From assembly GCA_028554795.2 (NCBI GenBank), contig JAPYKE020000541.1, forward strand, positions 1-64,000: a stretch of DNA of 64,000 nt, in the 5' to 3' direction. A program made the position numbers and the translations under genes. This DNA comes from Sinohyriopsis cumingii (Eukaryota > Mollusca > Bivalvia > Unionida > Unionidae). Below, piece by piece: positions 1-64,000 of the stretch; position 1 is the first letter of the stretch; the number at the start of each line of letters is the position of its first letter. The notes under the pieces were generated by a model, which saw only the letters and a program-made list of their open reading frames with translations, did not search any database and was not told where the DNA came from.

Positions 1-2112
1 TTTGAATTATGATTTTTACGATGGATGAAGTGGGATCGGATTGCACGTGATTGCGCTCTCGACAGAGGATCAGTCGTGTTATGATGGTCTCAAAGACTTC
101 TATAAAGCGTTGAGTTATAAAGCTTCATCGTCGTTGAGTGGCACCACCACTGCTGATTTCATTTTCACCATTGACGAAACACCTACAGCTGACGATTAAG
201 ATTTCAAGTCACCTATTCAGTCCCTCGCAACTACTTTCACGAGGTCGGCACAAACACACTGATAAAATCTATTTAACTCAACGATACGCACATATGCCTT
301 AAGTAATCACAATCCGTGTCATATATTAATGATATGTCGTGGCATTGGCCTTGCAAAAATCCATTGGTGTTTTTGATGTGCCGCTATCCATTCGTCGGAT
401 AGTTTTCTCGCTATCGACTTGACCGTCCGCGAGGGAAAATATCCTGCTCATTTCGATGCGACCATTAATTGATTTGTCATATAATAGAAGGCCGCAAAGA
501 GTCAAAGATACTTTTGCAGCCGCAACAAACTGCACGAGCAGATCTCACAGCAGGTTTTGAACAAACATTTTGCCCGCTGATTGAACTGAAAAAGAAAATT
601 GCCGAAGCGCAACTGTACAATATGTTGGCAGCCCTAAATGGAAAAGAAGAAGAACCGAGTCCAGTTCATTAATAGCTAAACAAAACAAGGATATCAAGAA
701 AGCAGCAACAGCAACTGCAGAGACTATTGGATACTTGTTAGCGGCCTATTGTGGAAGTAAAGATGTGGAAATTGGAAAAGCCGTTTGTAGACTTTAGAAT
801 GGCAGTTGACATGATGCATACGCGACACCCGAGTACAAGTCGCAAAAGCAAATACCGGTTCAATACTTTAAAGAAAGTATCTCTTGATGCGATTTTTGAA
901 AATTCTAGACTTGTCTCTCTTAAGAGACCAATCAACTGGAAGGATTACATAATAATGTACCAACACAAACATACAATACACAATTTATTGATGAACAGTG
1001 GACTCATTTTATAGAACGTATAAACCATTTCAAAGACGAAAAACTAGAAAATGTGAAACAGTATGGAGAGAACATATGACACTGCACGTATCCCAACAGG
1101 AATTGCCAAGACAACGGACGACTTAAGAGTCCACTCTCATGAACATTGACGTAGAGAAAGAAATAAACAACATTAGCGTGCATTTGAGGACCTTTGACAA
1201 CAGCAACAAAAACGCGCAGGAAGGTATTACTCCCAAAACGTGAAGCACGTGTACTCCAAAGTGAAGGTTAGCTATACCTACGTGTGCAGAAACATCAGAA
1301 AATCAACAACATGCATTCGAGGACCAACATAAAGAAAACCTTTACAATGCAGCAATAAAGGCGTGAAGCACGTCTAATTTGAAGCGAAGAACAATAAGGA
1401 AAGGAAACGGAAAAGAACCCACGAACATTTTCCAATGTGGATGTAGAAAGAACATGCACCTCACTTTCCCACCAGAGAAAGAATTATCCGAATGACTAGG
1501 CGAAAAAATAAGAAAGTGATGCCACCAAAAAGGGACAAAATGGAGGAGGCCTTGTTGGGCTCGAAGGAACTCACGGATAGATTGAAACACATGTGCGATC
1601 AGTTCGTGCGGTAGACAACGCACACGAAGTCAATAATGAAGCTGCATCAATTTGCCAATGAAATCTTGGATATAAAAAAAAAAAAAACATATCGCGCGTT
1701 TTATGCAAGAACAGCGATGTATACGATAAACTTCATTCGTACATCACCGATGATGTGTTCTGAGAGAACTGAGACGCAGTGTATGCTACCCCAAATCTAT
1801 GATACGATGCAACAGGATGTTGTAAATTCAATCAAAAGTATTACCTCGATGATTACAATCTCATCTATTAAAACTTCGTGTGACATTTTCTACAACTGCT
1901 ACCGCTGATGAATCGCGCACACTTGATAGAACGAATTTATTACAGTTGGTATACGGGTTGGTATATTATCCGATCACACTCGTTTGGTTGTCTGCCGGTC
2001 AACAACGACTGTCTGATTCGGTGATTGCAAATCAGGCAACGGAAAGGTGAAATACTGTTTGAGTAGTGAGTATAGTAGAGTGGCAATGGCGGTTTTCTCG
2101 GTCGCAGTATGA
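1..2112 (+). pseudogene. Decayed coding region A, copy 1
   Basis: This is the same remnant as at 6722-8823, starting at the window edge. It carries many extra one-base differences not seen in any other copy. Because they stop abruptly downstream in non-coding DNA, they are more likely assembly errors than further decay, so reading frames in this copy should not be trusted. Confidence 0.55.
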
Positions 2113-5093
2113 CTGGCTGCTTGCTTGGGCCACTTTTCTTTTATGGATTATTAACGCACGGGTGAAACAAAGTATGAGGCTTGCCTAATAAAAAAGAAAG
2201 GTTATGAAGATAGAAAGGTGTGACCTAGAAAATGATTTTTTTTTAAAAATTCCAAGCCCATCATATTAACACTACTGTCCTTAATCAGGAAGTTGATATA
2301 TTGTTTCTGGCAAACCAATCAAATGTATCTATCAAAGAAAGGTTTTGCTGATATAGAACTAGGAGATATTTGCTGAAACTTAAGCTGGAATCAAGCATCA
2401 AGGAAAATGGTTAAAACATCCCGAGGGTTTCTTTGGAAAATTCCTAAACTTGTTTTCAGTAATAACATAAGTCTCAATTCTGCAATTTAAATAGTAGATA
2501 GTAATAGTCAACCTTTGTATTATGTGTAGCTCTCAAGAAGATCCCAATGTTATCAAAATGTAATGGGCTAAATGATTTAGAAATTTAGTGAAATTACAAC
2601 CAAGACATACCTTATGGAATTTTTAAGTATCAGTTTGATAAAAACAAACATCCCCCCTCAATATTATCTTTAAATATGCCAGCTGCTTTTAAATATGTCA
2701 TTTAGTTTACAATAATTTAGCAAACAATAATATTTTGAAAACGTTTCATATTCATTCATATCTTATATTCCTTGAAACTTACTGGTTTTTGTTGCCTTTC
2801 CAATCCCGACATTACGAATCTGTATTATCACTCAGATAAGCTATGGTTCAGGATTTATTTTGCTATTTACACTGCATATACAATACTTATTGGTGGTCGA
2901 TAGCATGCAATATTTACTTAATCAAGGAATATGTTATGGACATCGTGCCAGGTAACACACATTTAATCGGTGTCCCTTAAAGAGTTGATTTAATGAGTGT
3001 TCATACATACTAGCCTTTGCAAACAAAATATACACAAACAGGATTAAAACAACTCTGCTTTCTTTCAGGTGAGGATTAAAGAGTGGGTGGTGTTAAAATG
3101 TGTGCAATGAAAACATTTTTTTGCAACTTTGTGCTGCTATTTTAGGAAAATTTACTTGAAATAGTTTTAACAATTAGTGGTGTTAACAATTATGTTAAAG
3201 ACTAGTGACAACGTCCAAGATGACTCCATGTTTTCATTTGCCACAAATGAATCTCTCACCAGGATTATCAAACTATACATTATTCTCAATACACACCAAA
3301 ATAGCGACAGTGAATTTAATTGTATATAAAGGTCAAACATCACGATTTTAATTAATTGAACATGCATAAGATCGGTACACCTGAGACACACATTTGTCTA
3401 CCTATAATGCAGACATGGTATAATCCCAATTCAATCATTCGCTTTATCGTTGAACCCGCGCTACACGTTTCTATTCATTCACACGTAGTATAACGTTACC
3501 TAGATTATCCATTTGAAATGATAACTCGAACGACACGTACGTCTCCAGTTGTACAGATATCTATCACGTTATTTCAGTTTTATGCTGTATATAATAAACA
3601 GAACCACATATGTGTCCCCTGATCATGCAGATTTGTTATAACATTAACTAGGTGATCTCTGTTATAGTTAACATTCCATATGCAACATCCCTATCCTGCA
3701 GACTTTAGAATAAGAGAATAAGAGAACTGCTGTTTCCCGAATTTCCGAATATCAAAAAGATTTTCCTGCCAGTATGAATCCGATACGCAATTCTTAATGG
3801 CAGTAGTGTTATTACCGCTCAAAACCTATGTGACAAATATTGAGTTATTGTCCCGACTGAGATAGTTGGAAGAAAATTAACAGAGAAAGAAGGAATATTT
3901 GTAAATTCATTCTTGTTTTGCTGGTGTCTTGTCTGAAAATGTATTTATGAAAATCGTTAGATTTTGAACTGGTGAAATTATCATGTATCACATATGTTTT
4001 TTTAACTAGAGATGTAGCTGTTAAAGTCAGAAAATCTGTGCAAATTCTGTTTACGAATAATGCTGACTTGGTTTTACCATGTTGCTATTTAATGTTGTTT
4101 CCAAGGATCAAATATTAGACAGATAACGTTTACTTCTCTTTCAGTTAGCTGCACTCCATCGTCAGCGAATGCAGTTCAGTAGCAAAGACACACTTAGCTA
4201 ATAACTGACTTATTATTCGGTTTAATATAATTCTTCCCAACACAGATTTATCATAACCAATCAAACCAACATGAACCTAAGAAATGTATAAACGGAGACG
4301 TATATACAAATAACAGATAGCTTAGGTTCTTACGGTAGGTATTGCTTCCATTATGGCTATTTACTTTTAGTTACGGCATTTTATATTACTGAAGTTCTGC
4401 AACCGTTAGTCATGACTTTTCTAGTGTTTTCAGTAGGTTACATATCAATAGCATGATTCATTACGAAAATGGCTTTAATATAATAAATTATGTAAGTGCA
4501 ATCAGAAAGTTTCATTTGTACTGCCATATTGTGCACACCTAATTCGATGATTCCTTTTAACACAAACCCCAAACCGTGCATGGTGCAAACCCCAACCTAA
4601 GCATTCGTTCACAGGAACCGTATGTAAATTTCCCTAACCTGCAGATGAAACACTGAATCAGTTTAATAATTTGACCGACCACATCTATGCCCCTTTGATC
4701 GAGTAGACTGATCACAACCCCAGTTCATCATAAATCTGTATATTAACCTGGACCACAATTGTTTTCCATTATCTTGCATTTATTTATTTTGTTAGGAATA
4801 GAAATAGAAATCAAGGAAATAGTTGAAAACCTTTGCGACAAATTAGGGAAGAAAGTTAACAAGCTAAATACTTGACAGAGAAGGATGACCATTCAAATAT
4901 TAAGAGGATACAAATATATATATGACAAAACGAAGACTAAAAATGAGTTTGGTGCTAAATTAACCACATATAAAAAGTAATAAATGTAAAATCCGTTTAA
5001 GAAAATTGGTTTGCAGTACTATGAACAGGTTCAAAATTTACTCGATAAAATTATGAAATATTTTTGAGAATTAAAAGTATCTTTTGTTCCAGA
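2113..5093. other. AT-rich spacer, copy 1
   Basis: Same content as 8824-11797. The transition from the error-rich to the clean part of the window lies inside it, at about 3090, where GTGG is repeated once more than in other copies. Confidence 0.7.
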
Positions 5094-6525
5094 CTAAGTT
5101 ATTTGCATAATTGGAAGTTGCCCCATTTCATGTCTAAAGCATACTGCGGACAAAACCACAAAAGTTCGTGCACTGAAGCTAGTTTGCCACGCTGTTCCAT
5201 ACCATTTTGTTTTCACCGCAGACAGATCCAAATTAGAATCGTACCTGAAATTAAATTCCAAGTTTCTGGAGATTACATTAAGCTTGTCCTATGCATGTGT
5301 TCATGCAATGTAAGTTAGGGAATTCTTACTATGGCGGTTTGGGATTCGTATTACTTTATTTCTAGGTCAAAGCCTATATCACTCGTGACATTTTCTTATT
5401 TAGTACATAAGTCACATAGTTTCAGCAATAGTTTCAGCAACTCGTGGAATTATTAGCAGTAATAGTCTATGAAAGTGAAGTGACCTAAGCATGCAGCCAG
5501 AGCCAAATAGTGTCTTTGACAAATTGTTTTTATTTTACTCGACTTGTATTGTCTGTAAATCCGCAACCGAATGGTTCTTTATCTGTGCTCCGAGTTGTCG
5601 ATGATTTTACATTTCCGCTAATACTGTCCCAAATTTGGCTTCAATACTTATTTCATCTTTGATGGCCACCGAACAGAGTTGACTGGTAATGTCGAAACTA
5701 CTGTGTGCCACTGCAAACATGTGTAAATAGACACATATTTGTGAATGTAATCTTACTGAAATTAATTTGCTAGACAGAGATAATGGTTAGTGCCAATATA
5801 GCCAGGACTATAATTCCGTTTGGTACACCTATGATGGTTGCTGTTACACCATGACCAACAGTTGTTGCCGCCGCAACCCCAAAAATAGAATCTGCCACTA
5901 AACACGCTCGATGGTATTTCATTATGAACGCTCTTCTCTTTGTAATTGCAAGTCGCTGCTGTTTCTCCGTTTTAATTTTTTTCGCACATCGTATGATTGA
6001 TGGTCCTGTTATGCAATCATAGAAAATATCTTCCAGGGGAATATTACAATTTCAGGAACCAGCACAAGCGTACCCGTGAATAAAAATGCATCTCGGCAAC
6101 ACATCTCCTAAACAACTGCAGATATTTGAATAAAAAGTAAGAAATTCGGTACAGATAATCGTGTTGGGAAATCTGCAAACGAGTGTGCATTTTTTCAAGC
6201 TGGTCCATATACGATCATAAATTGTGACTGCACGTGTACTTTCATTGGCATCTATGTAGCCAAGCAAAAATATCTTCTGTGGGTTCATGCTGGCTATTTA
6301 ATCGCAAAGAAACTTCAGTCATTCCTTAGCTGTCAAATACCTTTTGCTAGGCTCTTGGTGATCATATCGCTCTGTAAGCTGAGACGCAAATATACACGTT
6401 TCTTGGTGCGGTACGACCATGTGACGTACTTTAAATTGAGACACAGTGGCACTTGGTGGAAGTGCATCTGTGGTCAACGCGAGAAACGACAGCGTAAAGA
6501 TTAAAAAATCGATGATTTTTTTCCG
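5094..6525 (-). pseudogene. Gene-like region B, copy 1
   Basis: Same region as at 11798-13229, in the clean part of copy 1. It has G near 5896 on the plus strand, reading Ala rather than Val at the start of the hydrophobic part (LVADSIFG versus LVVDSIFG), as in copies 3 and 4. Confidence 0.48.
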
Positions 6526-6721
6526 TCATTGACTTATCCGCGCAAGAAACACGGGCGTTGAAGCAGTTCCCGACTGAATAAACGATTTAAAAATCAACGT
6601 TTTTTTCCCGTCAGTGACTGCTCCGCGCAAACAACATCGAAACCATCCAAACTTTGTGATATAATTCAGTTCATGCGCTAATGATTAGAAAAGCCCTGCT
6701 GGATTAAGAAAAACTCATCTA

Positions 6722-8823
6722 TTGTTGAATATGATTTTACGATGGATGAAGTGGGATCGATTGCACGTGATTGCGCTCTCGACAGATGATCAGTCGTGTT
6801 ATGATGGTCTCAAAGACTTCTATAAAGCGTTGAGTGATAAAGCTTCATCGTCGTTGAGTGGCACCACCACTGCTGATTTCATTTTCACCATTGACGAAAC
6901 ACCTACAGCTGACGATTAAGATTCAAGTCACCTATTCAGTCCCTCGCAACTACTTTCACGAGGTCGGCACAAACACACTGATAAAATCTATTTAACTCAA
7001 CGATACGCACATATGCCTTAAGTAATCGCAATCCGTGTCATATATTAATGATATGTCGTGGCATTGGCCTTGCAAAAATCCATTGGTGTTTTTGATGTGC
7101 CGCTATCCATTCGTCGGATAGTTTTCTCGCTATCGACTTGACCGTCGCGAGGGAAAATATCCTGCTCATTTCGATGCGACCATTAATTGATTTGTCATAT
7201 AATAGAAGGCCGCAAAAGAGTCAAAGATACTTTGCAGCCGCAACAAACTGCACGAGCAGATCTCACAGCAGGTTTTGAACAAACATTTTGCCCCGCTGAT
7301 TGAACTGAAAAAGAAAATTGCCGAAGCGCAACTGTACAATATGTGGCAGCCCTAAATGGAAAAGAAGAAGAACCGAGTCCAGTTCATAAAATAGCTAAAC
7401 AAAACAAGGATATCAAGAAAGCAGCAACAGCAACTGCAGAGACTATTGGATACTTGTTAGCGGCTATTGTGGAAGTAAAGATGTGGAAATTGGAAAAGCC
7501 GTTGGTAGACTTTAGAATGGCAGTTGACATGATGCCATACGCGACACCCGAGTACAAGTCGCAAAAGCAAATACCGGTTCAATACTTTAAAGAAGTATCT
7601 CTTGATGCGATTTTTGAAAATTCTAGACTTGTCTCTCTTAAGAGACCAATCAACTGGAAGGATTACATAATAATGTACCAACACAAACATACAATACACA
7701 ATTTATTGATGAACAGTGGACTCATTTTATAGAACGTATAAACCATTTCAAAGACGAAAAACTAGAAAAGGTGAAACAGTATGGAGAGAACATATGACAC
7801 TGCACGTATCCCAACAGGAATTGCCAAGACAACGACGACTTAAGAGTCCACTCTCATGAACATGACGTAGAGAAAGAAATAAACAACATTAGCGTGCATT
7901 TGAGGACCTTTGACAACAGCAACAAAAACGCGCAGAAGGTATACTCCCAAAACGTGAAGCACGTGTACTCCAAAGTGAAGGGTTAGCTATACCTACGTGT
8001 GCAGAAACATCAGAAAATCAACAACATGCATTCGAGGACCAACATAAAGAAAACCTTTACAATGCAGCAATAAAGGCGTGAAGCACGTCTAATTTGAAGC
8101 GAAGAACAATAAGGAAAGGAAACGGAAAAGAACCCACGAACATTTTCCAATGTGGATGTAGAAAGAACATGCACCTCACTTTCCCACCAGAGAAAGAATT
8201 ATCCGAATGACTAGGCGAAAAAATAAGAAAGTGATGCCACCAAAAAGGGACAAAATGGAGGAGGCCTTGTTGGGCTCGAAGGAACTCACGGATAGATTGA
8301 AACACATGTGCGATCAGTTCGTGCGGTAGACAACGCACACGAAGTCAATAATGAAGCTGCATCAATTTGCCAATGAAATCTTGGATATAAAAAAAAAAAA
8401 AAACATATCGCGCGTTTATGCAAGAACAGCGATGTATACGATAAACTTCATTCGTACATCACCGATGATGTGTTCTGAGAGAACTGAGACGCAGTGTATG
8501 CTACCCAAATCTATGATACGATGCAACAGGATGTTGTAAATTCAATCAAAAGTATTACCTCGATGATTACAATCTCATCTATTAAAACTTCGTGTGACAT
8601 TTTCTACAACTGCTACCGCTGATGAATCGCGCACACTTGATAGAACGAATTTATTACAGTTGGTATACGGTTGGTATATTATCCGATCACACTCGTTTGG
8701 TTGTCTGCCGGTCAACAACGACTGTCTGATTCGGTGATTGCAAATCAGGCAACGGAAAGTGAATTACTGTTGAGTAGTGAGTATAGTAGAGTGGCAATGG
8801 CGGTTTTCTCGGTCGCTGTATGA
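6722..8823 (+). pseudogene. Decayed coding region A, copy 2 (unrecognised coiled-coil-like protein)
   Basis: I do not recognise the family. Successive open stretches in different frames read as real protein on the plus strand. The first runs from an ATG at 6731 to 6919 and is acidic at its C-terminal end (TIDETPTADD). A 129-codon stretch at 7343-7732 begins Lys/Glu-rich, then has a short hydrophobic helix (GYLLAAIVEV). A stretch over about 7642-7986 is rich in Lys, Glu, Asn and His and looks like long amphipathic helix (for example KDEKLEKVKQYGEN). Shorter pieces lie at 8207-8329 and 8351-8539, and the region ends near 8823 with SSEYSRVAMAVFSVAV. About ten interruptions separate the pieces. 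Base composition is less AT-rich than the following spacer, and a polyadenylation signal follows. It is divergent from region B, whose 5' end lies about 200 bp upstream. The composition suggests a cytosolic or membrane-associated helical protein, but that is inference only. Confidence 0.6.
8389..8403 (+). repeat. Poly-A run, variable between copies
   Basis: A15 in copy 2. By my count the run is 14, 15, 14, 16, 15, 16, 15, 14, 14 and 15 in copies 1-10. It lies inside region A. Its length is the most variable site in the unit and may also reflect sequencing error. Confidence 0.8.
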
Positions 8824-8897
8824 CTGGCTGCTTGCTTGGGCCACTTTTCTTTTATGGATTATTAACGCACGGGTGAAACAAAGTATGAGGCTTGCCT

Positions 8898-8903
8898 AAT
8901 AAA
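8898..8903 (+). terminator. Polyadenylation signal AATAAA after region A
   Basis: AATAAA lies 75 bp beyond the last stop of region A and just before a GT/T-rich stretch (TTATGG..., then T9 at about 8947), the usual arrangement for animal 3' ends. It is present at the same offset in all copies (2187-2192 in copy 1). Confidence 0.4.
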
Positions 8904-9870
8904 AAAGAAAGGTTATGGAAGATAGAAGGTGTGACCTAGAAAATGATTTTTTTTTTAAAAATTCCAAGCCATCATATTAACACTACTGTCCTTAATCAGG
9001 AAGTTGATATATTGTTTCTGGCAAACCAATCAAATGTATCTATCAAAGAAAGGTTTTGCTGATATAGAACTAGGAGATATTTGCTGAAACTTAAGCTGGA
9101 ATCAAGCATCAAGGAAATGGTTAAAACATCCCGAGGGTTTCTTTGGAAAATCCTAAACTTGTTTTCAGTAATAACATAAGTCTCAATTCTGCAATTTAAA
9201 TAGTAGATAGTAATAGTCAACCTTTGTATTATGTGTAGCTCTCAAGAAGATCCCAATGTTATCAAAATGTAATGGGCTAAATGATTTAGAAATTTAGTGA
9301 AATTACAACCAAGACATACCTTATGGAATTTTTAAGTATCAGTTTGATAAAAACAAACATCCCCCCTCAATATTATCTTTAAATATGCCAGCTGCTTTTA
9401 AATATGTCATTTAGTTTACAATAATTTAGCAAACAATAATATTTTGAAAACGTTTCATATTCATTCATATCTTATATTCCTTGAAACTTACTGGTTTTTG
9501 TTGCCTTTCCAATCCCGACATTACGAATCTGTATTATCACTCAGATAAGCTATGGTTCAGGATTTATTTGCTATTTACACTGCATATACAATACTTATTG
9601 GTGGTCGATAGCATGCAATATTTACTTAATCAAGGAATATGTTATGGACATCGTGCCAGGTAACACACATTTAATCGGTGTCCCTTAAAGAGTTGATTTA
9701 ATGAGTGTTCATACATACTAGCCTTTGCAAACAAAATATACACAAACAGGATTAAAACAACTCTGCTTTCTTTCAGGTGAGGATTAAAGAGTGGTGTTAA
9801 AATGTGTGCAATGAAAACATTTTTTTGCAACTTTGTGCTGCTATTTTAGGAAAATTTACTTGAAATAGTT

Positions 9871-9896
9871 TTAACAATTAGTGGTGTTAACAATTA
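9871..9896. repeat. Short direct repeat TTAACAATTA
   Basis: Two copies of TTAACAATTA (9871-9880 and 9887-9896) separated by six bases, in the AT-rich spacer. Conserved in all units, with no known role. Confidence 0.6.
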
Positions 9897-10026
9897 TGTT
9901 AAAGACTAGTGACAACGTCCAAGATGACTCCATGTTTTCATTTGCCACAAATGAATCTCTCACCAGGATTATCAAACTATACATTATTCTCAATACACAC
10001 CAAAATAGCGACAGTGAATTTAATTG

Positions 10027-10035
10027 TATATAAAG
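10027..10035 (+). promoter_or_regulatory. TATA-like box in the spacer
   Basis: TATATAAAG is a good match to a TATA box on the plus strand, but no coding region begins within several hundred bases downstream. It could drive a non-coding transcript or be chance in AT-rich DNA. Confidence 0.15.
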
Positions 10036-11266
10036 GTCAAACATCACGATTTTAATTAATTGAACATGCATAAGATCGGTACACCTGAGACACACATTTG
10101 TCTACCTATAATGCAGACATGGTATAATCCCAATTCAATCATTCGCTTTATCGTTGAACCCGCGCTACACGTTTCTATTCATTCACACGTAGTATAACGT
10201 TACCTAGATTATCCATTTGAAATGATAACTCGAACGACACGTACGTCTCCAGTTGTACAGATATCTATCACGTTATTTCAGTTTTATGCTGTATATAATA
10301 AACAGAACCACATATGTGTCCCCTGATCATGCAGATTTGTTATAACATTAACTAGGTGATCTCTGTTATAGTTAACATTCCATATGCAACATCCCTATCC
10401 TGCAGACTTTAGAATAAGAGAATAAGAGAACTGCTGTTTCCCGAATTTCCGAATATCAAAAAGATTTTCCTGCCAGTATGAATCCGATACGCAATTCTTA
10501 ATGGCAGTAGTGTTATTACCGCTCAAAACCTATGTGACAAATATTGAGTTATTGTCCCGACTGAGATAGTTGGAAGAAAATTAACAGAGAAAGAAGGAAT
10601 ATTTGTAAATTCATTCTTGTTTTGCTGGTGTCTTGTCTGAAAATGTATTTATGAAAATCGTTAGATTTTGAACTGGTGAAATTATCATGTATCACATATG
10701 TTTTTTTAACTAGAGATGTAGCTGTTAAAGTCAGAAAATCTGTGCAAATTCTGTTTACGAATAATGCTGACTTGGTTTTACCATGTTGCTATTTAATGTT
10801 GTTTCCAAGGATCAAATATTAGACAGATAACGTTTACTTCTCTTTCAGTTAGCTGCACTCCATCGTCAGCGAATGCAGTTCAGTAGCAAAGACACACTTA
10901 GCTAATAACTGACTTATTATTCGGTTTAATATAATTCTTCCCAACACAGATTTATCATAACCAATCAAACCAACATGAACCTAAGAAATGTATAAACGGA
11001 GACGTATATACAAATAACAGATAGCTTAGGTTCTTACGGTAGGTATTGCTTCCATTATGGCTATTTACTTTTAGTTACGGCATTTTATATTACTGAAGTT
11101 CTGCAACCGTTAGTCATGACTTTTCTAGTGTTTTCAGTAGGTTACATATCAATAGCATGATTCATTACGAAAATGGCTTTAATATAATAAATTATGTAAG
11201 TGCAATCAGAAAGTTTCATTTGTACTGCCATATTGTGCACACCTAATTCGATGATTCCTTTTAACA

Positions 11267-11299
11267 CAAACCCCAAACCGTGCATGGTGCAAACCCCAA
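11267..11299. repeat. Short direct repeat CAAACCCCAA
   Basis: CAAACCCCAA at 11267-11276 and 11290-11299, with a GTGCATGGTGC string between. It is a C-rich patch unusual for the spacer. It is not a telomere repeat, because only two units are present. Confidence 0.6.
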
Positions 11300-11482
11300 C
11301 CTAAGCATTCGTTCACAGGAACCGTATGTAAATTTCCCTAACCTGCAGATGAAACACTGAATCAGTTTAATAATTTGACCGACCACATCTATGCCCCTTT
11401 GATCGAGTAGACTGATCACAACCCCAGTTCATCATAAATCTGTATATTAACCTGGACCACAATTGTTTTCCATTATCTTGCA

Positions 11483-11492
11483 TTTATTTATT
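11483..11492 (-). terminator. Doubled polyadenylation signal after region B
   Basis: The plus strand reads TTTATTTATT, giving two overlapping AATAAA hexamers on the minus strand about 305 bp beyond the last stop of region B. Such strings are common by chance in AT-rich DNA, so the support is position only. The matching site in copy 1 is 4779-4788. Confidence 0.3.
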
Positions 11493-11499
11493 TTGTTAG

Positions 11500-11684
11500 G
11501 AATAGAAATAGAAATCAAGGAAATAGTTGAAAACCTTTGCGACAAATTAGGGAAGAAAGTTAACAAGCTAAATACTTGACAGAGAAGGATGACCATTCAA
11601 ATATTAAGAGGATACAAATATATATATGACAAAACGAAGACTAAAAATGAGTTTGGTGCTAAATTAACCACATATAAAAAGTAA
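11500..11684 (+). other. Exon-like plus-strand piece in the spacer
   Basis: After a pyrimidine-rich run ending TTTTGTTAG, there is a 25-codon open stretch ending near 11579 (with EIVENLCDKLGKKVNKLN). A second open stretch follows from an ATG at 11589 to 11684 (31 residues, MTIQILRGYKYIYDKTKTKN at its start) in the same frame. Both are Lys-rich, which AT-rich DNA produces easily. The acceptor-like sequence is the only reason to mention it. Another acceptor (CTTCTCTTTCAG ending at 10848) precedes an 18-codon open stretch. Confidence 0.2.
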
Positions 11685-11948
11685 TAAATGTAAAATCCGT
11701 TTAAGAAAATTTTTTTGCAGTACTATGAACAGGTTCAAAATTTACTCGATAAAATTATGAAATATTTTTGAGAATTAAAAGTATCTTTTGTTCCAGACTA
11801 AGTTATTTGCATAATTGGAAGTTGCCCCATTTCATGTCTAAAGCATACTGCGGACAAAACCACAAAAGTTCGTGCACTGAAGCTAGTTTGCCACGCTGTT
11901 CCATACCATTTTGTTTTCACCGCAGACAGATCCAAATTAGAATCGTAC

Positions 11949-12314
11949 CTGAAATTAAATTCCAAGTTTCTGGAGATTACATTAAGCTTGTCCTATGCAT
12001 GTGTTCATGCAATGTAAGTTAGGGAATTCTTACTATGGCGGTTTGGGATTCGTATTACTTTATTTCTAGGTCAAAGCCTATATCACTCGTGACATTTTCT
12101 TATTTAGTACATAAGTCACATAGTTTCAGCAATAGTTTCAGCAACTCGTGGAATTATTAGCAGTAATAGTCTATGAAAGTGAAGTGACCTAAGCATGCAG
12201 CCAGAGCCAAATAGTGTCTTTGACAAATTGTTTTTATTTTACTCGACTTGTATTGTCTGTAAATCCGCAACCGAATGGTTCTTTATCTGTGCTCCGAGTT
12301 GTCGATGATTTTAC
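11949..12314 (-). other. Candidate spliceosomal intron in region B, copy 2
   Basis: On the minus strand the 5' boundary is AAAT|GTAAAA at 12315/12314, and the 3' boundary is TTTAATTTCAG|G at 11949/11948. The upstream open frame (12490-12315) and the downstream open frame (11948-11798) are joined in phase, the junction falling after the second base of a codon. Both flanking pieces read as good protein and each is closed by a stop just inside the supposed intron. The length of 366 bp is ordinary for an animal intron. Equivalent introns lie at 5245-5610 in copy 1 and at the same offset in the other copies. There is no transcript evidence. Confidence 0.4.
12121..12144. repeat. Perfect 12-bp tandem duplication
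   Basis: TAGTTTCAGCAA occurs twice back to back, inside the candidate intron of region B. It is present in every copy (5417-5440 in copy 1). Confidence 0.85.
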
Positions 12315-12422
12315 ATTTCCGCTAATACTGTCCCAAATTTGGCTTCAATACTTATTTCATCTTTGATGGCCACCGAACAGAGTTGACTGGTAATGTCGAA
12401 ACTACTGTGTGCCACTGCAAAC

Positions 12423-12440
12423 ATGTGTAAATAGACACAT
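12423..12440. repeat. Short inverted repeat
   Basis: ATGTGT and ACACAT arms flank a 6-base loop (AAATAG). The element lies within region B and is present in all copies. It is too short to claim a function. Confidence 0.5.
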
Positions 12441-13205
12441 ATTTGTGAATGTAATCTTACTGAAATTAATTTGCTAGACAGAGATAATGGTTAGTGCCAA
12501 TATAGCCAGGACTATAATTCCGTTTGGTACACCTATGATGGTTGCTGTTACACCATGACCAACAGTTGTTGCCGCCGCAACCCCAAAAATAGAATCTACC
12601 ACTAAACACGCTCGATGGTATTTCATTATGAACGCTCTTCTCTTTGTAATTGCAAGTCGCTGCTGTTTCTCCGTTTTAATTTTTTTCGCACATCGTATGA
12701 TTGATGGTCCTGTTATGCAATCATAGAAAATATCTTCCAGGGGAATATTACAATTTCAGGAACCAGCACAAGCGTACCCGTGAATAAAAATGCATCTCGG
12801 CAACACATCTCCTAAACAACTGCAGATATTTGAATAAAAAGTAAGAAATTCGGTACAGATAATCGTGTTGGGAAATCTGCAAACGAGTGTGCATTTTTTC
12901 AAGCTGGTCCATATACGATCATAAATTGTGACTGCACGTGTACTTTCATTGGCATCTATGTAGCCAAGCAAAAATATCTTCTGTGGGTTCATGCTGGCTA
13001 TTTAATCGCAAAGAAACTTCAGTCATTCCTTAGCTGTCAAATACCTTTTGCTAGGCTCTTGGTGATCATATCGCTCTGTAAGCTGAGACGCAAATATACA
13101 CGTTTCTTGGTGCGGTACGACCATGTGACGTACTTTAAATTGAGACACAGTGGCACTTGGTGGAAGTGCATCTGTGGTCAACGCGAGAAACGACAGCGTA
13201 AAGAT

Positions 13206-13254
13206 TAAAAAATCGATGATTTTTTTCCGTCATTGACTTATCCGCGCAAGAAAC
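13206..13254. repeat. Direct repeat R1 in the control region, copy 2
   Basis: Starts in an A-rich, T-rich stretch and ends at CGCGCAAGAAAC. It is about 70-80 percent identical by eye to R2 at 13292-13339. The shared core is CCGTCA, one variable base, TGACT, then TCCGCGCAA. It overlaps the 5' end of region B. The matching position in copy 1 is 6502-6550. Confidence 0.7.
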
Positions 13255-13425
13255 ACGGGCGTTGAAGCAGTTCCCGACTGAATAAACGATTTAAAAATCA
13301 ACGTTTTTTTCCCGTCAGTGACTGCTCCGCGCAAACAACATCGAAACCATCCAAACTTTGTGATATAATTCAGTTCATGCGCTAATGATTAGAAAAGCCC
13401 TGCTGGATTAAGAAAAACTCATCTA
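13230..13425. promoter_or_regulatory. Probable divergent promoter region between B and A
   Basis: About 200 bp separating the 5' end of region B (minus strand) from the 5' end of region A of copy 3 (plus strand). It holds direct repeat R2 and most of the R1-R2 spacer, and a TGATATAAT string at about 13360 that could act as a TATA-like element for A. It is richer in CpG than the AT-rich spacer. The role is inferred from position only. Confidence 0.35.
13292..13339. repeat. Direct repeat R2 in the control region, copy 2
   Basis: Second, imperfect copy of R1, 86 bp away and in the same orientation, sharing the CCGTCA, TGACT and TCCGCGCAA blocks. It lies between the divergent 5' ends of regions A and B, about 95 bp from the first ATG region of A. 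The matching position in copy 1 is 6588-6635. Confidence 0.7.
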
Positions 13426-46752: not shown

Positions 46753-46948
46753 TCATTGACTTATCCGCGCAAGAAACACGGGCGTTGAAGCAGTTCCCGA
46801 CTGAATAAACGATTTAAAAATCAACGTTTTTTTCCCGTCAGTGACTGCTCCGCGCAAACAACATCGAAACCATCCAAACTTTGTGATATAATTCAGTTCA
46901 TGCGCTAATGATTAGAAAAGCCCTGCTGGATTAAGAAAAACTCATCTA

Positions 46949-52024: not shown

Positions 52025-53456
52025 CTAAGTTATTTGCATAATTGGAAGTTGCCCCATTTCATGTCTAAAGCATACTGCGGACAAAACCACAAAAGTTCGT
52101 GCACTGAAGCTAGTTTGCCACGCTGTTCCATACCATTTTGTTTTCACCGCAGACAGATCCAAATTAGAATCGTACCTGAAATTAAATTCCAAGTTTCTGG
52201 AGATTACATTAAGCTTGTCCTATGCATGTGTTCATGCAATGTAAGTTAGGGAATTCTTACTATGGCGGTTTGGGATTCGTATTACTTTATTTCTAGGTCA
52301 AAGCCTATATCACTCGTGACATTTTCTTATTTAGTACATAAGTCACATAGTTTCAGCAATAGTTTCAGCAACTCGTGGAATTATTAGCAGTAATAGTCTA
52401 TGAAAGTGAAGTGACCTAAGCATGCAGCCAGAGCCAAATAGTGTCTTTGACAAATTGTTTTTATTTTACTCGACTTGTATTGTCTGTAAATCCGCAACCG
52501 AATGGTTCTTTATCTGTGCTCCGAGTTGTCGATGATTTTACATTTCCGCTAATACTGTCCCAAATTTGGCTTCAATACTTATTTCATCTTTGATGGCCAC
52601 CGAACAGAGTTGACTGGTAATGTCGAAACTACTGTGTGCCACTGCAAACATGTGTAAATAGACACATATTTGTGAATGTAATCTTACTGAAATTAATTTG
52701 CTAGACAGAGATAATGGTTAGTGCCAATATAGCCAGGACTATAATTCCGTTTGGTACACCTATGATGGTTGCTGTTACACCATGACCAACAGTTGTTGCC
52801 GCCGCAACCCCAAAAATAGAATCTACCACTAAACACGCTCGATGGTATTTCATTATGAACGCTCTTCTCTTTGTAATTGCAAGTCGCTGCTGTTTCTCCG
52901 TTTTAATTTTTTTCGCACATCGTATGATTGATGGTCCTGTTATGCAATCATAGAAAATATCTTCCAGGGGAATATTACAATTTCAGGAACCAGCACAAGC
53001 GTACCCGTGAATAAAAATGCATCTCGGCAACACATCTCCTAAACAACTGCAGATATTTGAATAAAAAGTAAGAAATTCGGTACAGATAATCGTGTTGGGA
53101 AATCTGCAAACGAGTGTGCATTTTTTCAAGCTGGTCCATATACGATCATAAATTGTGACTGCACGTGTACTTTCATTGGCATCTATGTAGCCAAGCAAAA
53201 ATATCTTCTGTGGGTTCATGCTGGCTATTTAATCGCAAAGAAACTTCAGTCATTCCTTAGCTGTCAAATACCTTTTGCTAGGCTCTTGGTGATCATATCG
53301 CTCTGTAAGCTGAGACGCAAATATACACGTTTCTTGGTGCGGTACGACCATGTGACGTACTTTAAATTGAGACACAGTGGCACTTGGTGGAAGTGCATCT
53401 GTGGTCAACGCGAGAAACGACAGCGTAAAGATTAAAAAATCGATGATTTTTTTCCG
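52025..53456 (-). pseudogene. Gene-like region B, copy 8
   Basis: Same region, Val form, no private change seen. Confidence 0.48.
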
Positions 53457-53652
53457 TCATTGACTTATCCGCGCAAGAAACACGGGCGTTGAAGCAGTTC
53501 CCGACTGAATAAACGATTTAAAAATCAACGTTTTTTTCCCGTCAGTGACTGCTCCGCGCAAACAACATCGAAACCATCCAAACTTTGTGATATAATTCAG
53601 TTCATGCGCTAATGATTAGAAAAGCCCTGCTGGATTAAGAAAAACTCATCTA

Positions 53653-55753
53653 TTGTTGAATATGATTTTACGATGGATGAAGTGGGATCGATTGCACGTG
53701 ATTGCGCTCTCGACAGATGATCAGTCGTGTTATGATGGTCTCAAAGACTTCTATAAAGCGTTGAGTGATAAAGCTTCATCGTCGTTGAGTGGCACCACCA
53801 CTGCTGATTTCATTTTCACCATTGACGAAACACCTACAGCTGACGATTAAGATTCAAGTCACCTATTCAGTCCCTCGCAACTACTTTCACGAGGTCGGCA
53901 CAAACACACTGATAAAATCTATTTAACTCAACGATACGCACATATGCCTTAAGTAATCACAATCCGTGTCATATATTAATGATATGTCGTGGCATTGGCC
54001 TTGCAAAAATCCATTGGTGTTTTTGATGTGCCGCTATCCATTCGTCGGATAGTTTTCTCGCTATCGACTTGACCGTCGCGAGGGAAAATATCCTGCTCAT
54101 TTCGATGCGACCATTAATTGATTTGTCATATAATAGAAGGCCGCAAAAGAGTCAAAGATACTTTGCAGCCGCAACAAACTGCACGAGCAGATCTCACAGC
54201 AGGTTTTGAACAAACATTTTGCCCCGCTGATTGAACTGAAAAAGAAAATTGCCGAAGCGCAACTGTACAATATGTGGCAGCCCTAAATGGAAAAGAAGAA
54301 GAACCGAGTCCAGTTCATAAAATAGCTAAACAAAACAAGGATATCAAGAAAGCAGCAACAGCAACTGCAGAGACTATTGGATACTTGTTAGCGGCTATTG
54401 TGGAAGTAAAGATGTGGAAATTGGAAAAGCCGTTGGTAGACTTTAGAATGGCAGTTGACATGATGCCATACGCGACACCCGAGTACAAGTCGCAAAAGCA
54501 AATACCGGTTCAATACTTTAAAGAAGTATCTCTTGATGCGATTTTTGAAAATTCTAGACTTGTCTCTCTTAAGAGACCAATCAACTGGAAGGATTACATA
54601 ATAATGTACCAACACAAACATACAATACACAATTTATTGATGAACAGTGGACTCATTTTATAGAACGTATAAACCATTTCAAAGACGAAAAACTAGAAAA
54701 GGTGAAACAGTATGGAGAGAACATATGACACTGCACGTATCCCAACAGGAATTGCCAAGACAACGACGACTTAAGAGTCCACTCTCATGAACATGACGTA
54801 GAGAAAGAAATAAACAACATTAGCGTGCATTTGAGGACCTTTGACAACAGCAACAAAAACGCGCAGAAGGTATACTCCCAAAACGTGAAGCACGTGTACT
54901 CCAAAGTGAAGGGTTAGCTATACCTACGTGTGCAGAAACATCAGAAAATCAACAACATGCATTCGAGGACCAACATAAAGAAAACCTTTACAATGCAGCA
55001 ATAAAGGCGTGAAGCACGTCTAATTTGAAGCGAAGAACAATAAGGAAAGGAAACGGAAAAGAACCCACGAACATTTTCCAATGTGGATGTAGAAAGAACA
55101 TGCACCTCACTTTCCCACCAGAGAAAGAATTATCCGAATGACTAGGCGAAAAAATAAGAAAGTGATGCCACCAAAAAGGGACAAAATGGAGGAGGCCTTG
55201 TTGGGCTCGAAGGAACTCACGGATAGATTGAAACACATGTGCGATCAGTTCGTGCGGTAGACAACGCACACGAAGTCAATAATGAAGCTGCATCAATTTG
55301 CCAATGAAATCTTGGATATAAAAAAAAAAAAAACATATCGCGCGTTTATGCAAGAACAGCGATGTATACGATAAACTTCATTCGTACATCACCGATGATG
55401 TGTTCTGAGAGAACTGAGACGCAGTGTATGCTACCCAAATCTATGATACGATGCAACAGGATGTTGTAAATTCAATCAAAAGTATTACCTCGATGATTAC
55501 AATCTCATCTATTAAAACTTCGTGTGACATTTTCTACAACTGCTACCGCTGATGAATCGCGCACACTTGATCGAACGAATTTATTACAGTTGGTATACGG
55601 TTGGTATATTATCCGATCACACTCGTTTGGTTGTCTGCCGGTCAACAACGACTGTCTGATTCGGTGATTGCAAATCAGGCAACGGAAAGTGAATTACTGT
55701 TGAGTAGTGAGTATAGTAGAGTGGCAATGGCGGTTTTCTCGGTCGCTGTATGA
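53653..55753 (+). pseudogene. Decayed coding region A, copy 9
   Basis: Same remnant and the same interruptions. C at 55572 pairs it with copy 8. Confidence 0.58.
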
Positions 55754-58728
55754 CTGGCTGCTTGCTTGGGCCACTTTTCTTTTATGGATTATTAACGCAC
55801 GGGTGAAACAAAGTATGAGGCTTGCCTAATAAAAAAGAAAGGTTATGGAAGATAGAAGGTGTGACCTAGAAAATGATTTTTTTTTTAAAAATTCCAAGCC
55901 ATCATATTAACACTACTGTCCTTAATCAGGAAGTTGATATATTGTTTCTGGCAAACCAATCAAATGTATCTATCAAAGAAAGGTTTTGCTGATATAGAAC
56001 TAGGAGATATTTGCTGAAACTTAAGCTGGAATCAAGCATCAAGGAAATGGTTAAAACATCCCGAGGGTTTCTTTGGAAAATCCTAAACTTGTTTTCAGTA
56101 ATAACATAAGTCTCAATTCTGCAATTTAAATAGTAGATAGTAATAGTCAACCTTTGTATTATGTGTAGCTCTCAAGAAGATCCCAATGTTATCAAAATGT
56201 AATGGGCTAAATGATTTAGAAATTTAGTGAAATTACAACCAAGACATACCTTATGGAATTTTTAAGTATCAGTTTGATAAAAACAAACATCCCCCCTCAA
56301 TATTATCTTTAAATATGCCAGCTGCTTTTAAATATGTCATTTAGTTTACAATAATTTAGCAAACAATAATATTTTGAAAACGTTTCATATTCATTCATAT
56401 CTTATATTCCTTGAAACTTACTGGTTTTTGTTGCCTTTCCAATCCCGACATTACGAATCTGTATTATCACTCAGATAAGCTATGGTTCAGGATTTATTTG
56501 CTATTTACACTGCATATACAATACTTATTGGTGGTCGATAGCATGCAATATTTACTTAATCAAGGAATATGTTATGGACATCGTGCCAGGTAACACACAT
56601 TTAATCGGTGTCCCTTAAAGAGTTGATTTAATGAGTGTTCATACATACTAGCCTTTGCAAACAAAATATACACAAACAGGATTAAAACAACTCTGCTTTC
56701 TTTCAGGTGAGGATTAAAGAGTGGTGTTAAAATGTGTGCAATGAAAACATTTTTTTGCAACTTTGTGCTGCTATTTTAGGAAAATTTACTTGAAATAGTT
56801 TTAACAATTAGTGGTGTTAACAATTATGTTAAAGACTAGTGACAACGTCCAAGATGACTCCATGTTTTCATTTGCCACAAATGAATCTCTCACCAGGATT
56901 ATCAAACTATACATTATTCTCAATACACACCAAAATAGCGACAGTGAATTTAATTGTATATAAAGGTCAAACATCACGATTTTAATTAATTGAACATGCA
57001 TAAGATCGGTACACCTGAGACACACATTTGTCTACCTATAATGCAGACATGGTATAATCCCAATTCAATCATTCGCTTTATCGTTGAACCCGCGCTACAC
57101 GTTTCTATTCATTCACACGTAGTATAACGTTACCTAGATTATCCATTTGAAATGATAACTCGAACGACACGTACGTCTCCAGTTGTACAGATATCTATCA
57201 CGTTATTTCAGTGTTATGCTGTATATAATAAACAGAACCACATATGTGTCCCCTGATCATGCAGATTTGTTATAACATTAACTAGGTGATCTCTGTTATA
57301 GTTAACATTCCATATGCAACATCCCTATCCTGCAGACTTTAGAATAAGAGAATAAGAGAACTGCTGTTTCCCGAATTTCCGAATATCAAAAAGATTTTCC
57401 TGCCAGTATGAATCCGATACGCAATTCTTAATGGCAGTAGTGTTATTACCGCTCAAAACCTATGTGACAAATATTGAGTTATTGTCCCGACTGAGATAGT
57501 TGGAAGAAAATTAACAGAGAAAGAAGGAATATTTGTAAATTCATTCTTGTTTTGCTGGTGTCTTGTCTGAAAATGTATTTATGAAAATCGTTAGATTTTG
57601 AACTGGTGAAATTATCATGTATCACATATGTTTTTTTAACTAGAGATGTAGCTGTTAAAGTCAGAAAATCTGTGCAAATTCTGTTTACGAATAATGCTGA
57701 CTTGGTTTTACCATGTTGCTATTTAATGTTGTTTCCAAGGATCAAATATTAGACAGATAACGTTTACTTCTCTTTCAGTTAGCTGCACTCCATCGTCAGC
57801 GAATGCAGTTCAGTAGCAAAGACACACTTAGCTAATAACTGACTTATTATTCGGTTTAATATAATTCTTCCCAACACAGATTTATCATAACCAATCAAAC
57901 CAACATGAACCTAAGAAATGTATAAACGGAGACGTATATACAAATAACAGATAGCTTAGGTTCTTACGGTAGGTATTGCTTCCATTATGGCTATTTACTT
58001 TTAGTTACGGCATTTTATATTTACTGAAGTTCTGCAACCGTTAGTCATGACTTTTCTAGTGTTTTCAGTAGGTTACATATCAATAGCATGATTCATTACG
58101 AAAATGGCTTTAATATAATAAATTATGTAAGTGCAATCAGAAAGTTTCATTTGTACTGCCATATTGTGCACACCTAATTCGATGATTCCTTTTAACACAA
58201 ACCCCAAACCGTGCATGGTGCAAACCCCAACCTAAGCATTCGTTCACAGGAACCGTATGTAAATTTCCCTAACCTGCAGATGAAACACTGAATCAGTTTA
58301 ATAATTTGACCGACCACATCTATGCCCCTTTGATCGAGTAGACTGATCACAACCCCAGTTCATCATAAATCTGTATATTAACCTGGACCACAATTGTTTT
58401 CCATTATCTTGCATTTATTTATTTTGTTAGGAATAGAAATAGAAATCAAGGAAATAGTTGAAAACCTTTGCGACAAATTAGGGAAGAAAGTTAACAAGCT
58501 AAATACTTGACAGAGAAGGATGACCATTCAAATATTAAGAGGATACAAATATATATATGACAAAACGAAGACTAAAAATGAGTTTGGTGCTAAATTAACC
58601 ACATATAAAAAGTAATAAATGTAAAATCCGTTTAAGAAAATTGGTTTGCAGTACTATGAACAGGTTCAAAATTTACTCGATAAAATTATGAAATATTTTT
58701 GAGAATTAAAAGTATCTTTTGTTCCAGA
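55754..58728. other. AT-rich spacer, copy 9
   Basis: Carries the copy 7-9 markers at 57213 and about 58021. No gene seen. Confidence 0.7.
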
Positions 58729-60160
58729 CTAAGTTATTTGCATAATTGGAAGTTGCCCCATTTCATGTCTAAAGCATACTGCGGACAAAACCACAAAAGT
58801 TCGTGCACTGAAGCTAGTTTGCCACGCTGTTCCATACCATTTTGTTTTCACCGCAGACAGATCCAAATTAGAATCGTACCTGAAATTAAATTCCAAGTTT
58901 CTGGAGATTACATTAAGCTTGTCCTATGCATGTGTTCATGCAATGTAAGTTAGGGAATTCTTACTATGGCGGTTTGGGATTCGTATTACTTTATTTCTAG
59001 GTCAAAGCCTATATCACTCGTGACATTTTCTTATTTAGTACATAAGTCACATAGTTTCAGCAATAGTTTCAGCAACTCGTGGAATTATTAGCAGTAATAG
59101 TCTATGAAAGTGAAGTGACCTAAGCATGCAGCCAGAGCCAAATAGTGTCTTTGACAAATTGTTTTTATTTTACTCGACTTGTATTGTCTGTAAATCCGCA
59201 ACCGAATGGTTCTTTATCTGTGCTCCGAGTTGTCGATGATTTTACATTTCCGCTAATACTGTCCCAAATTTGGCTTCAATACTTATTTCATCTTTGATGG
59301 CCACCGAACAGAGTTGACTGGTAATGTCGAAACTACTGTGTGCCACTGCAAACATGTGTAAATAGACACATATTTGTGAATGTAATCTTACTGAAATTAA
59401 TTTGCTAGACAGAGATAATGGTTAGTGCCAATATAGCCAGGACTATAATTCCGTTTGGTACACCTATGATGGTTGCTGTTACACCATGACCAACAGTTGT
59501 TGCCGCCGCAACCCCAAAAATAGAATCTACCACTAAACACGCTCGATGGTATTTCATTATGAACGCTCTTCTCTTTGTAATTGCAAGTCGCTGCTGTTTC
59601 TCCGTTTTAATTTTTTTCGCACATCGTATGATTGATGGTCCTGTTATGCAATCATAGAAAATATCTTCCAGGGGAATATTACAATTTCAGGAACCAGCAC
59701 AAGCGTACCCGTGAATAAAAATGCATCTCGGCAACACATCTCCTAAACAACTGCAGATATTTGAATAAAAAGTAAGAAATTCGGTACAGATAATCGTGTT
59801 GGGAAATCTGCAAACGAGTGTGCATTTTTTCAAGCTGGTCCATATACGATCATAAATTGTGACTGCACGTGTACTTTCATTGGCATCTATGTAGCCAAGC
59901 AAAAATATCTTCTGTGGGTTCATGCTGGCTATTTAATCGCAAAGAAACTTCAGTCATTCCTTAGCTGTCAAATACCTTTTGCTAGGCTCTTGGTGATCAT
60001 ATCGCTCTGTAAGCTGAGACGCAAATATACACGTTTCTTGGTGCGGTACGACCATGTGACGTACTTTAAATTGAGACACAGTGGCACTTGGTGGAAGTGC
60101 ATCTGTGGTCAACGCGAGAAACGACAGCGTAAAGATTAAAAAATCGATGATTTTTTTCCG
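58729..60160 (-). pseudogene. Gene-like region B, copy 9
   Basis: Same region, Val form, no private change seen. This is the last complete copy; copy 10 is cut before reaching it. Confidence 0.48.
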
Positions 60161-60356
60161 TCATTGACTTATCCGCGCAAGAAACACGGGCGTTGAAGCA
60201 GTTCCCGACTGAATAAACGATTTAAAAATCAACGTTTTTTTCCCGTCAGTGACTGCTCCGCGCAAACAACATCGAAACCATCCAAACTTTGTGATATAAT
60301 TCAGTTCATGCGCTAATGATTAGAAAAGCCCTGCTGGATTAAGAAAAACTCATCTA

Positions 60357-62458
60357 TTGTTGAATATGATTTTACGATGGATGAAGTGGGATCGATTGCA
60401 CGTGATTGCGCTCTCGACAGATGATCAGTCGTGTTATGATGGTCTCAAAGACTTCTATAAAGCGTTGAGTGATAAAGCTTCATCGTCGTTGAGTGGCACC
60501 ACCACTGCTGATTTCATTTTCACCATTGACGAAACACCTACAGCTGACGATTAAGATTCAAGTCACCTATTCAGTCCCTCGCAACTACTTTCACGAGGTC
60601 GGCACAAACACACTGATAAAATCTATTTAACTCAACGATACGCACATATGCCTTAAGTAATCGCAATCCGTGTCATATATTAATGATATGTCGTGGCATT
60701 GGCCTTGCAAAAATCCATTGGTGTTTTTGATGTGCCGCTATCCATTCGTCGGATAGTTTTCTCGCTATCGACTTGACCGTCGCGAGGGAAAATATCCTGC
60801 TCATTTCGATGCGACCATTAATTGATTTGTCATATAATAGAAGGCCGCAAAAGAGTCAAAGATACTTTGCAGCCGCAACAAACTGCACGAGCAGATCTCA
60901 CAGCAGGTTTTGAACAAACATTTTGCCCCGCTGATTGAACTGAAAAAGAAAATTGCCGAAGCGCAACTGTACAATATGTGGCAGCCCTAAATGGAAAAGA
61001 AGAAGAACCGAGTCCAGTTCATAAAATAGCTAAACAAAACAAGGATATCAAGAAAGCAGCAACAGCAACTGCAGAGACTATTGGATACTTGTTAGCGGCT
61101 ATTGTGGAAGTAAAGATGTGGAAATTGGAAAAGCCGTTGGTAGACTTTAGAATGGCAGTTGACATGATGCCATACGCGACACCCGAGTACAAGTCGCAAA
61201 AGCAAATACCGGTTCAATACTTTAAAGAAGTATCTCTTGATGCGATTTTTGAAAATTCTAGACTTGTCTCTCTTAAGAGACCAATCAACTGGAAGGATTA
61301 CATAATAATGTACCAACACAAACATACAATACACAATTTATTGATGAACAGTGGACTCATTTTATAGAACGTATAAACCATTTCAAAGACGAAAAACTAG
61401 AAAAGGTGAAACAGTATGGAGAGAACATATGACACTGCACGTATCCCAACAGGAATTGCCAAGACAACGACGACTTAAGAGTCCACTCTCATGAACATGA
61501 CGTAGAGAAAGAAATAAACAACATTAGCGTGCATTTGAGGACCTTTGACAACAGCAACAAAAACGCGCAGAAGGTATACTCCCAAAACGTGAAGCACGTG
61601 TACTCCAAAGTGAAGGGTTAGCTATACCTACGTGTGCAGAAACATCAGAAAATCAACAACATGCATTCGAGGACCAACATAAAGAAAACCTTTACAATGC
61701 AGCAATAAAGGCGTGAAGCACGTCTAATTTGAAGCGAAGAACAATAAGGAAAGGAAACGGAAAAGAACCCACGAACATTTTCCAATGTGGATGTAGAAAG
61801 AACATGCACCTCACTTTCCCACCAGAGAAAGAATTATCCGAATGACTAGGCGAAAAAATAAGAAAGTGATGCCACCAAAAAGGGACAAAATGGAGGAGGC
61901 CTTGTTGGGCTCGAAGGAACTCACGGATAGATTGAAACACATGTGCGATCAGTTCGTGCGGTAGACAACGCACACGAAGTCAATAATGAAGCTGCATCAA
62001 TTTGCCAATGAAATCTTGGATATAAAAAAAAAAAAAAACATATCGCGCGTTTATGCAAGAACAGCGATGTATACGATAAACTTCATTCGTACATCACCGA
62101 TGATGTGTTCTGAGAGAACTGAGACGCAGTGTATGCTACCCAAATCTATGATACGATGCAACAGGATGTTGTAAATTCAATCAAAAGTATTACCTCGATG
62201 ATTACAATCTCATCTATTAAAACTTCGTGTGACATTTTCTACAACTGCTACCGCTGATGAATCGCGCACACTTGATAGAACGAATTTATTACAGTTGGTA
62301 TACGGTTGGTATATTATCCGATCACACTCGTTTGGTTGTCTGCCGGTCAACAACGACTGTCTGATTCGGTGATTGCAAATCAGGCAACGGAAAGTGAATT
62401 ACTGTTGAGTAGTGAGTATAGTAGAGTGGCAATGGCGGTTTTCTCGGTCGCTGTATGA
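60357..62458 (+). pseudogene. Decayed coding region A, copy 10
   Basis: Same remnant and the same interruptions. It lacks the copy 8/9 change and carries G at 60663. Confidence 0.58.
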
Positions 62459-64000
62459 CTGGCTGCTTGCTTGGGCCACTTTTCTTTTATGGATTATTAA
62501 CGCACGGGTGAAACAAAGTATGAGGCTTGCCTAATAAAAAAGAAAGGTTATGGAAGATAGAAGGTGTGACCTAGAAAATGATTTTTTTTTTAAAAATTCC
62601 AAGCCATCATATTAACACTACTGTCCTTAATCAGGAAGTTGATATATTGTTTCTGGCAAACCAATCAAATGTATCTATCAAAGAAAGGTTTTGCTGATAT
62701 AGAACTAGGAGATATTTGCTGAAACTTAAGCTGGAATCAAGCATCAAGGAAATGGTTAAAACATCCCGAGGGTTTCTTTGGAAAATCCTAAACTTGTTTT
62801 CAGTAATAACATAAGTCTCAATTCTGCAATTTAAATAGTAGATAGTAATAGTCAACCTTTGTATTATGTGTAGCTCTCAAGAAGATCCCAATGTTATCAA
62901 AATGTAATGGGCTAAATGATTTAGAAATTTAGTGAAATTACAACCAAGACATACCTTATGGAATTTTTAAGTATCAGTTTGATAAAAACAAACATCCCCC
63001 CTCAATATTATCTTTAAATATGCCAGCTGCTTTTAAATATGTCATTTAGTTTACAATAATTTAGCAAACAATAATATTTTGAAAACGTTTCATATTCATT
63101 CATATCTTATATTCCTTGAAACTTACTGGTTTTTGTTGCCTTTCCAATCCCGACATTACGAATCTGTATTATCACTCAGATAAGCTATGGTTCAGGATTT
63201 ATTTGCTATTTACACTGCATATACAATACTTATTGGTGGTCGATAGCATGCAATATTTACTTAATCAAGGAATATGTTATGGACATCGTGCCAGGTAACA
63301 CACATTTAATCGGTGTCCCTTAAAGAGTTGATTTAATGAGTGTTCATACATACTAGCCTTTGCAAACAAAATATACACAAACAGGATTAAAACAACTCTG
63401 CTTTCTTTCAGGTGAGGATTAAAGAGTGGTGTTAAAATGTGTGCAATGAAAACATTTTTTTGCAACTTTGTGCTGCTATTTTAGGAAAATTTACTTGAAA
63501 TAGTTTTAACAATTAGTGGTGTTAACAATTATGTTAAAGACTAGTGACAACGTCCAAGATGACTCCATGTTTTCATTTGCCACAAATGAATCTCTCACCA
63601 GGATTATCAAACTATACATTATTCTCAATACACACCAAAATAGCGACAGTGAATTTAATTGTATATAAAGGTCAAACATCACGATTTTAATTAATTGAAC
63701 ATGCATAAGATCGGTACACCTGAGACACACATTTGTCTACCTATAATGCAGACATGGTATAATCCCAATTCAATCATTCGCTTTATCGTTGAACCCGCGC
63801 TACACGTTTCTATTCATTCACACGTAGTATAACGTTACCTAGATTATCCATTTGAAATGATAACTCGAACGACACGTACGTCTCCAGTTGTACAGATATC
63901 TATCACGTTATTTCAGTTTTATGCTGTATATAATAAACAGAACCACATATGTGTCCCCTGATCATGCAGATTTGTTATAACATTAACTAGGTGATCTCTG
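62459..64000. other. AT-rich spacer, copy 10 (cut by window end)
   Basis: The first half of the spacer only. It lacks the copy 7-9 marker, with T at about 63917. No gene seen. Confidence 0.7.

Follow-up and report, generated by a model that had tools for sequence, protein, structure and literature searches.

What does a repeat unit of about 6.7 kb consist of when it recurs almost unchanged across tens of kilobases, and how could such an array have arisen? The question is raised by a stretch of 64,000 nucleotides from Sinohyriopsis cumingii, analyzed here in full and referred to as the window. The reading favored by the evidence, at a probability of roughly 0.63, is a macrosatellite with a composite unit. 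In this unit, AT-rich spacer would surround an old and decayed transposon-like element that ends in inverted repeats and holds the remnants of two divergent genes. The block bounded by inverted repeats and an error-rich left end are described in addition to what an earlier reading of the same DNA had contained.

Organization of the array

A survey of repeated k-mers across the 64-kb window placed recurring 25-mers mostly 6703 to 6706 bases apart. Nine copies of a 24-base anchor, located at the first base of each unit from u1 to u9 in the following list, define eight full units and a right partial unit. These were delimited by anchor and alignment, and the left partial unit by comparison with the unit.

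1 to 5415, plus strand: u0, left partial unit of 5415 bp (unit positions about 1310 to the end)
5416 to 12119, plus strand: u1, 6704 bp
12120 to 18822, plus strand: u2, 6703 bp
18823 to 25527, plus strand: u3, 6705 bp
25528 to 32232, plus strand: u4, 6705 bp
32233 to 38937, plus strand: u5, 6705 bp, the reference unit for anatomy
38938 to 45642, plus strand: u6, 6705 bp
45643 to 52346, plus strand: u7, 6704 bp, identical to u8
52347 to 59050, plus strand: u8, 6704 bp, identical to u7
59051 to 64000, plus strand: u9, right partial unit of 4950 bp

All units run head to tail in one orientation, and the array fills the whole window. This tandem arrangement is observed directly and bears out the original prediction of a tandem array of 6.7-kb units with near-constant length (6703 to 6705 bp in the eight full units, with two partial ones beside them). 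The array was also expected to run past both edges, and neither an array end nor a single-copy flank occurs inside the window.

Kilobase-size units in an uninterrupted head-to-tail series are what a macrosatellite would show. The earlier statement that it is not a classical satellite is fair, yet units of such size form an established class. Human macrosatellite units measure 6.6 kb for FLJ40296 and 6.1 kb for RNU2 (PMC3599962), and RNU2 alleles carry 5 to 82 copies (PMC4132748). The present array resembles both in unit size and tandem arrangement. In contrast, their units encode U2 snRNA or a proline-rich protein, whereas the unit studied here has no Rfam match and holds only decayed coding traces. 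D4Z4 (3.3 kb, DUX4) offers a further likeness as a kilobase-size tandem unit that holds a gene (PMC3599962). Compared by description only, D4Z4 differs in having half the unit size and a gene described in each unit. A literature search for a 6.7-kb tandem repeat as a macrosatellite found no paper. Macrosatellites of this unit size are already known, and what distinguishes the present one is a composite, probably transposon-derived unit.

Variation between units and a probable contig edge on the left

The uniformity of the array is likewise a direct observation. Pairwise differences among u1 to u8 average 7.2 over 28 pairs (about 0.11%) and reach at most 12. A global alignment of u1 to u9 contains 18 variable columns, of which two reflect poly-A length and two form a GG/TT pair. 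The original prediction had put the number of variable sites at about fifteen. Its near-uniformity stands, while the count rises to these 18 columns, and u0 adds 43 differences within positions 1 to 3086. At the lower extreme, u7 and u8 agree over all 6704 bp (window positions 45643 to 59050), a pair that may reflect recent duplication or a duplication made by the assembly.

Neighboring units tend to resemble one another. The observed order gives 30 differences where random orders average 41.75, and 3.6% of all orders are as low; columns 2974 and 2975, one of 6299/6300, and the partial units u0 and u9 were set aside for this test. Moreover, 8 of 45 informative site pairs show all four combinations of states, and every one of them involves site 1807 or site 6608 of the unit. 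The ten sites compared were those left once columns 1085, 2974, 2975, and one of 6299/6300, together with four singleton-state columns, had been put aside. Such pairs are a sign of tract exchange between units, albeit a thin one that depends on two sites. Two recurrent mutations, polishing errors, or misassigned reads could also produce these mosaics. Recent amplification or continuing homogenization, as originally proposed, fits the low mean difference and the similarity of neighbors, with the four-combination pairs as thin further evidence and expansion by the assembler as a rival account.

The left end of the window departs from this uniformity.

1 to 3086, no strand: error-rich stretch, inferred to be an uncorrected contig edge

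Against the unit consensus, this stretch carries 43 differences, of which 7 are substitutions and 36 are indel bases (27 inserted, 9 deleted). Most of these indel bases, 33 in all, adjoin an identical base. Four bases belong to a single GTGG insertion, and one deletion falls at the first aligned base of u0, where it is perhaps an alignment-end effect. The differences then stop abruptly, and the remaining 2329 bases of u0 match the consensus without exception. The stretch looks like uncorrected long-read sequencing error, because evolutionary divergence would not be expected to consist mainly of homopolymer insertions and deletions with an abrupt stop. Hence, the left edge of the window probably lies within the array at, or close to, the end of a contig, and the true array is therefore probably longer on the left. 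In this respect, the array served as its own reference, since its near-identical neighboring units exposed errors at a probable contig end that would have been mistaken for divergence without them. The same stretch provides an internal control for assembly quality.

These data bear on whether the array exists at this length at all. An assembler could have unrolled or concatenated a few-copy repeat or a 6.7-kb circular molecule. Such an expansion would account for the identity of u7 and u8, for a left end with the many errors typical of a contig edge, and for a window devoid of flanking single-copy DNA. However, ten sites with the rarer state in at least two units distinguish eight unit types among the nine units u1 to u9. 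If the variants are real, a diploid with one or two copies in each haploid genome would show no more than four types. Variants are also common to neighbors, as in u3 and u4 and in u6 to u8. The eight types make a one- or two-copy assembly artefact less likely, and we regard expansion by the assembler as unlikely overall, while placing it ahead of the other alternatives considered below.

A probably composite repeat unit

The anatomy of the unit was described in u5, where the following features were located.

32277 to 32317, plus strand: left inverted-repeat arm (9 exact copies in the window)
35642 to 35682, minus strand: right inverted-repeat arm (10 exact copies in the window)
32277 to 35682, no strand: element-like block between the arms (GC 0.40, CpG observed/expected 1.06, containing every period-3 window above 4)
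35683 to 38937, no strand: AT-rich spacer (outside the arms, GC 0.33, CpG observed/expected 0.68, no period-3 window above 4)
32350 to 32934, minus strand: left gene remnant, limits approximate, weak period-3 signal, overlapping a 93-aa open stretch
33871 to 35391, plus strand: right gene remnant, limits approximate, strong period-3 signal, with stops and frame changes
33313 to 33453, plus strand: a 56-nt sequence present twice at a spacing of 85 bp, 80% alike, between the divergent remnants (repeat comparison)

The strongest inverted-repeat pair in the unit consists of two 41-nt arms matched at 33 of 41 positions, at unit positions 45-85 and 3410-3450. With composition-weighted scoring and non-overlapping arms, the pair reaches 40.7 bits and the runner-up 23.1; none of 300 dinucleotide shuffles equals the former score. 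Other tests are weaker. The unweighted score was reached by 13 of 100 shuffles, and in each of two tests that count self-overlapping palindromes, 1 of 200 shuffles did so. The arms, which resemble the terminal inverted repeats of TIR transposons, divide the unit into a GC-richer block of 3.4 kb between the arms and an AT-rich remainder of 3.3 kb. A segmentation by GC content, blind to the arms, placed a boundary at unit positions 3430-3485, which coincides with the right arm. Both arms are observed directly, as is the fact that composition and coding periodicity change at the right one. CpG observed/expected falls to 0.08 at positions 35733 to 36232 (unit 3500-4000), just to the right of that arm, from 1.18 in the preceding 500 bp.

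Coding periodicity follows the same partition. Among windows inside the arms, 9 of 79 exceed a period-3 value of 4, against 0 of 75 outside. The maximum inside, 6.64, was reached by none of 200 shuffles; the maximum outside is ordinary, being reached by 165 of 200. The strong signal belongs to the plus-strand remnant, at about unit 1640-3160. On the minus strand, periodicity is weak, at 2.2 to 3.0 (up to 2.99) over about unit 0-702, where shuffle maxima average 2.59. Of the two gene remnants proposed from the letters alone, the plus-strand one is thus clearly upheld and the minus-strand one weakly so. In the reference unit, stops and frame changes interrupt the frames. The longest open stretch, of 142 codons, was equaled in length by 69 of 500 shuffles, no better than chance. 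The few variable sites between units cannot explain the broken frames, which suggests that decay preceded amplification or was spread by it. Any specific protein-coding role of the array is improbable. The 56-nt doublet between the remnants could represent an old shared promoter region.

Searches for known families and relatives returned no accepted match. Rfam gave none at the gathering threshold over the window, nor at E values up to 1 over one unit, a result that speaks against an rDNA, 5S, or snRNA array. A tRNA scan of the window was empty. All 27 open stretches of at least 60 aa were scanned against Pfam, with shorter pieces searched in part, and none gave a match that reached its cut-off; no transposase gene or remnant was recognized in this set. 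No family was recognized with NCBIfam (2 pieces) or PHROGs (4 pieces). Profile matches below threshold, under the curated cut-off where one exists, were treated as chance; they comprise MATH_2 (0.14), LXG (0.027 and 0.03), Fib_alpha (0.077), DUF6730 (0.16 and 0.087), DUF2659 (0.013), GPAT_N (0.036), SepX_GlpR_3 (0.19), and phrog_8549 (0.093). In a PDB sequence search, the 142-aa piece had one match at E 0.78 and the 93-aa piece had none. Structure prediction of the 142-aa piece, run without an alignment, gave a mean pLDDT of 37.2. No exact 30-mer was found in prokaryote genomes.

Could the block instead be viral? Integrated multi-copy DNA of viral origin, present as tandem units derived from a circle, would be consistent with divergent coding remnants between inverted repeats and with the tandem head-to-tail form. 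Against this origin, the two open pieces have no confirmed relatives in the viral contigs of IMG/VR. The 142-aa piece gave 20 pattern matches there and 61 in prokaryote contigs, and the 93-aa piece gave 27 in IMG/VR, with none confirmed for either. One unit compared by blastn with phages and plasmids also had no match. This counter-evidence is weak, as eukaryote viruses are probably thinly covered in these collections. We nevertheless consider a viral origin very improbable. The lack of relatives in the phage, plasmid, viral, and prokaryote collections, together with a low coding density, would by itself suggest a eukaryotic source.

Origin of the unit and of the array

The unit has the appearance of a transposon-like element that first decayed and was later amplified together with spacer. 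Several observations count against the transposon part of this reading. The second GC boundary, at unit 6400, does not match the left arm and falls about 350 bp to its outer side. No target-site duplication was recognized by eye in the 30-base flanks of the arms, although an old element could have lost one, and no transposase was recognized in the 27 open stretches. The same observations, together with the unweighted shuffle test, would suit a genuine array that has no transposon ancestry. In that case, unequal exchange would have multiplied an ordinary host segment containing one pseudogene or two, and the inverted repeat would be incidental. The composition-weighted comparison, in which the arms beat all 300 shuffles, and the coincidence of the right arm with the change in GC and coding periodicity speak for arms that are more than incidental. 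An ordinary host segment is unlikely, slightly more so than expansion by the assembler.

Under the preferred reading of a composite, transposon-derived unit, an element with inverted repeats would have inserted once into AT-rich DNA and then lost its coding capacity. The element and its flank may subsequently have been duplicated as one block, with further units added either through unequal exchange or when a circular copy was reinserted. Uniformity of the array would then be kept by exchange between units. Mismatches affect 8 of 41 positions between the arms and about 0.11% of positions between units. Provided that the two arms were nearly alike at the outset, the element is therefore much older than the array's uniformity. 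A bolder extension assigns the 3.4-kb block, now decayed, to an undescribed class of inverted-repeat elements with two genes (or takes it for an integrated virus), encoding proteins that current family libraries lack. Its capture into the macrosatellite would then have allowed the amplification and uniformity of the 6.7-kb units. This extension is speculative, and we rate it as improbable.

Routes from transposable elements to satellites have been proposed in a review, which names tandem insertion, unequal exchange, and rolling-circle products among them and cites hobo, a DNA transposon, at 16 tandem copies (PMC12628747). The array resembles satellite DNA derived from transposable elements, as described there, in that a decayed element appears to have been amplified in tandem. 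It differs from them in that its unit joins an element-like block to about as much spacer, so that the array is more than a plain succession of elements. The window offers a clean case of a macrosatellite with a composite unit, probably transposon plus spacer, in which variant sites distinguish most units.
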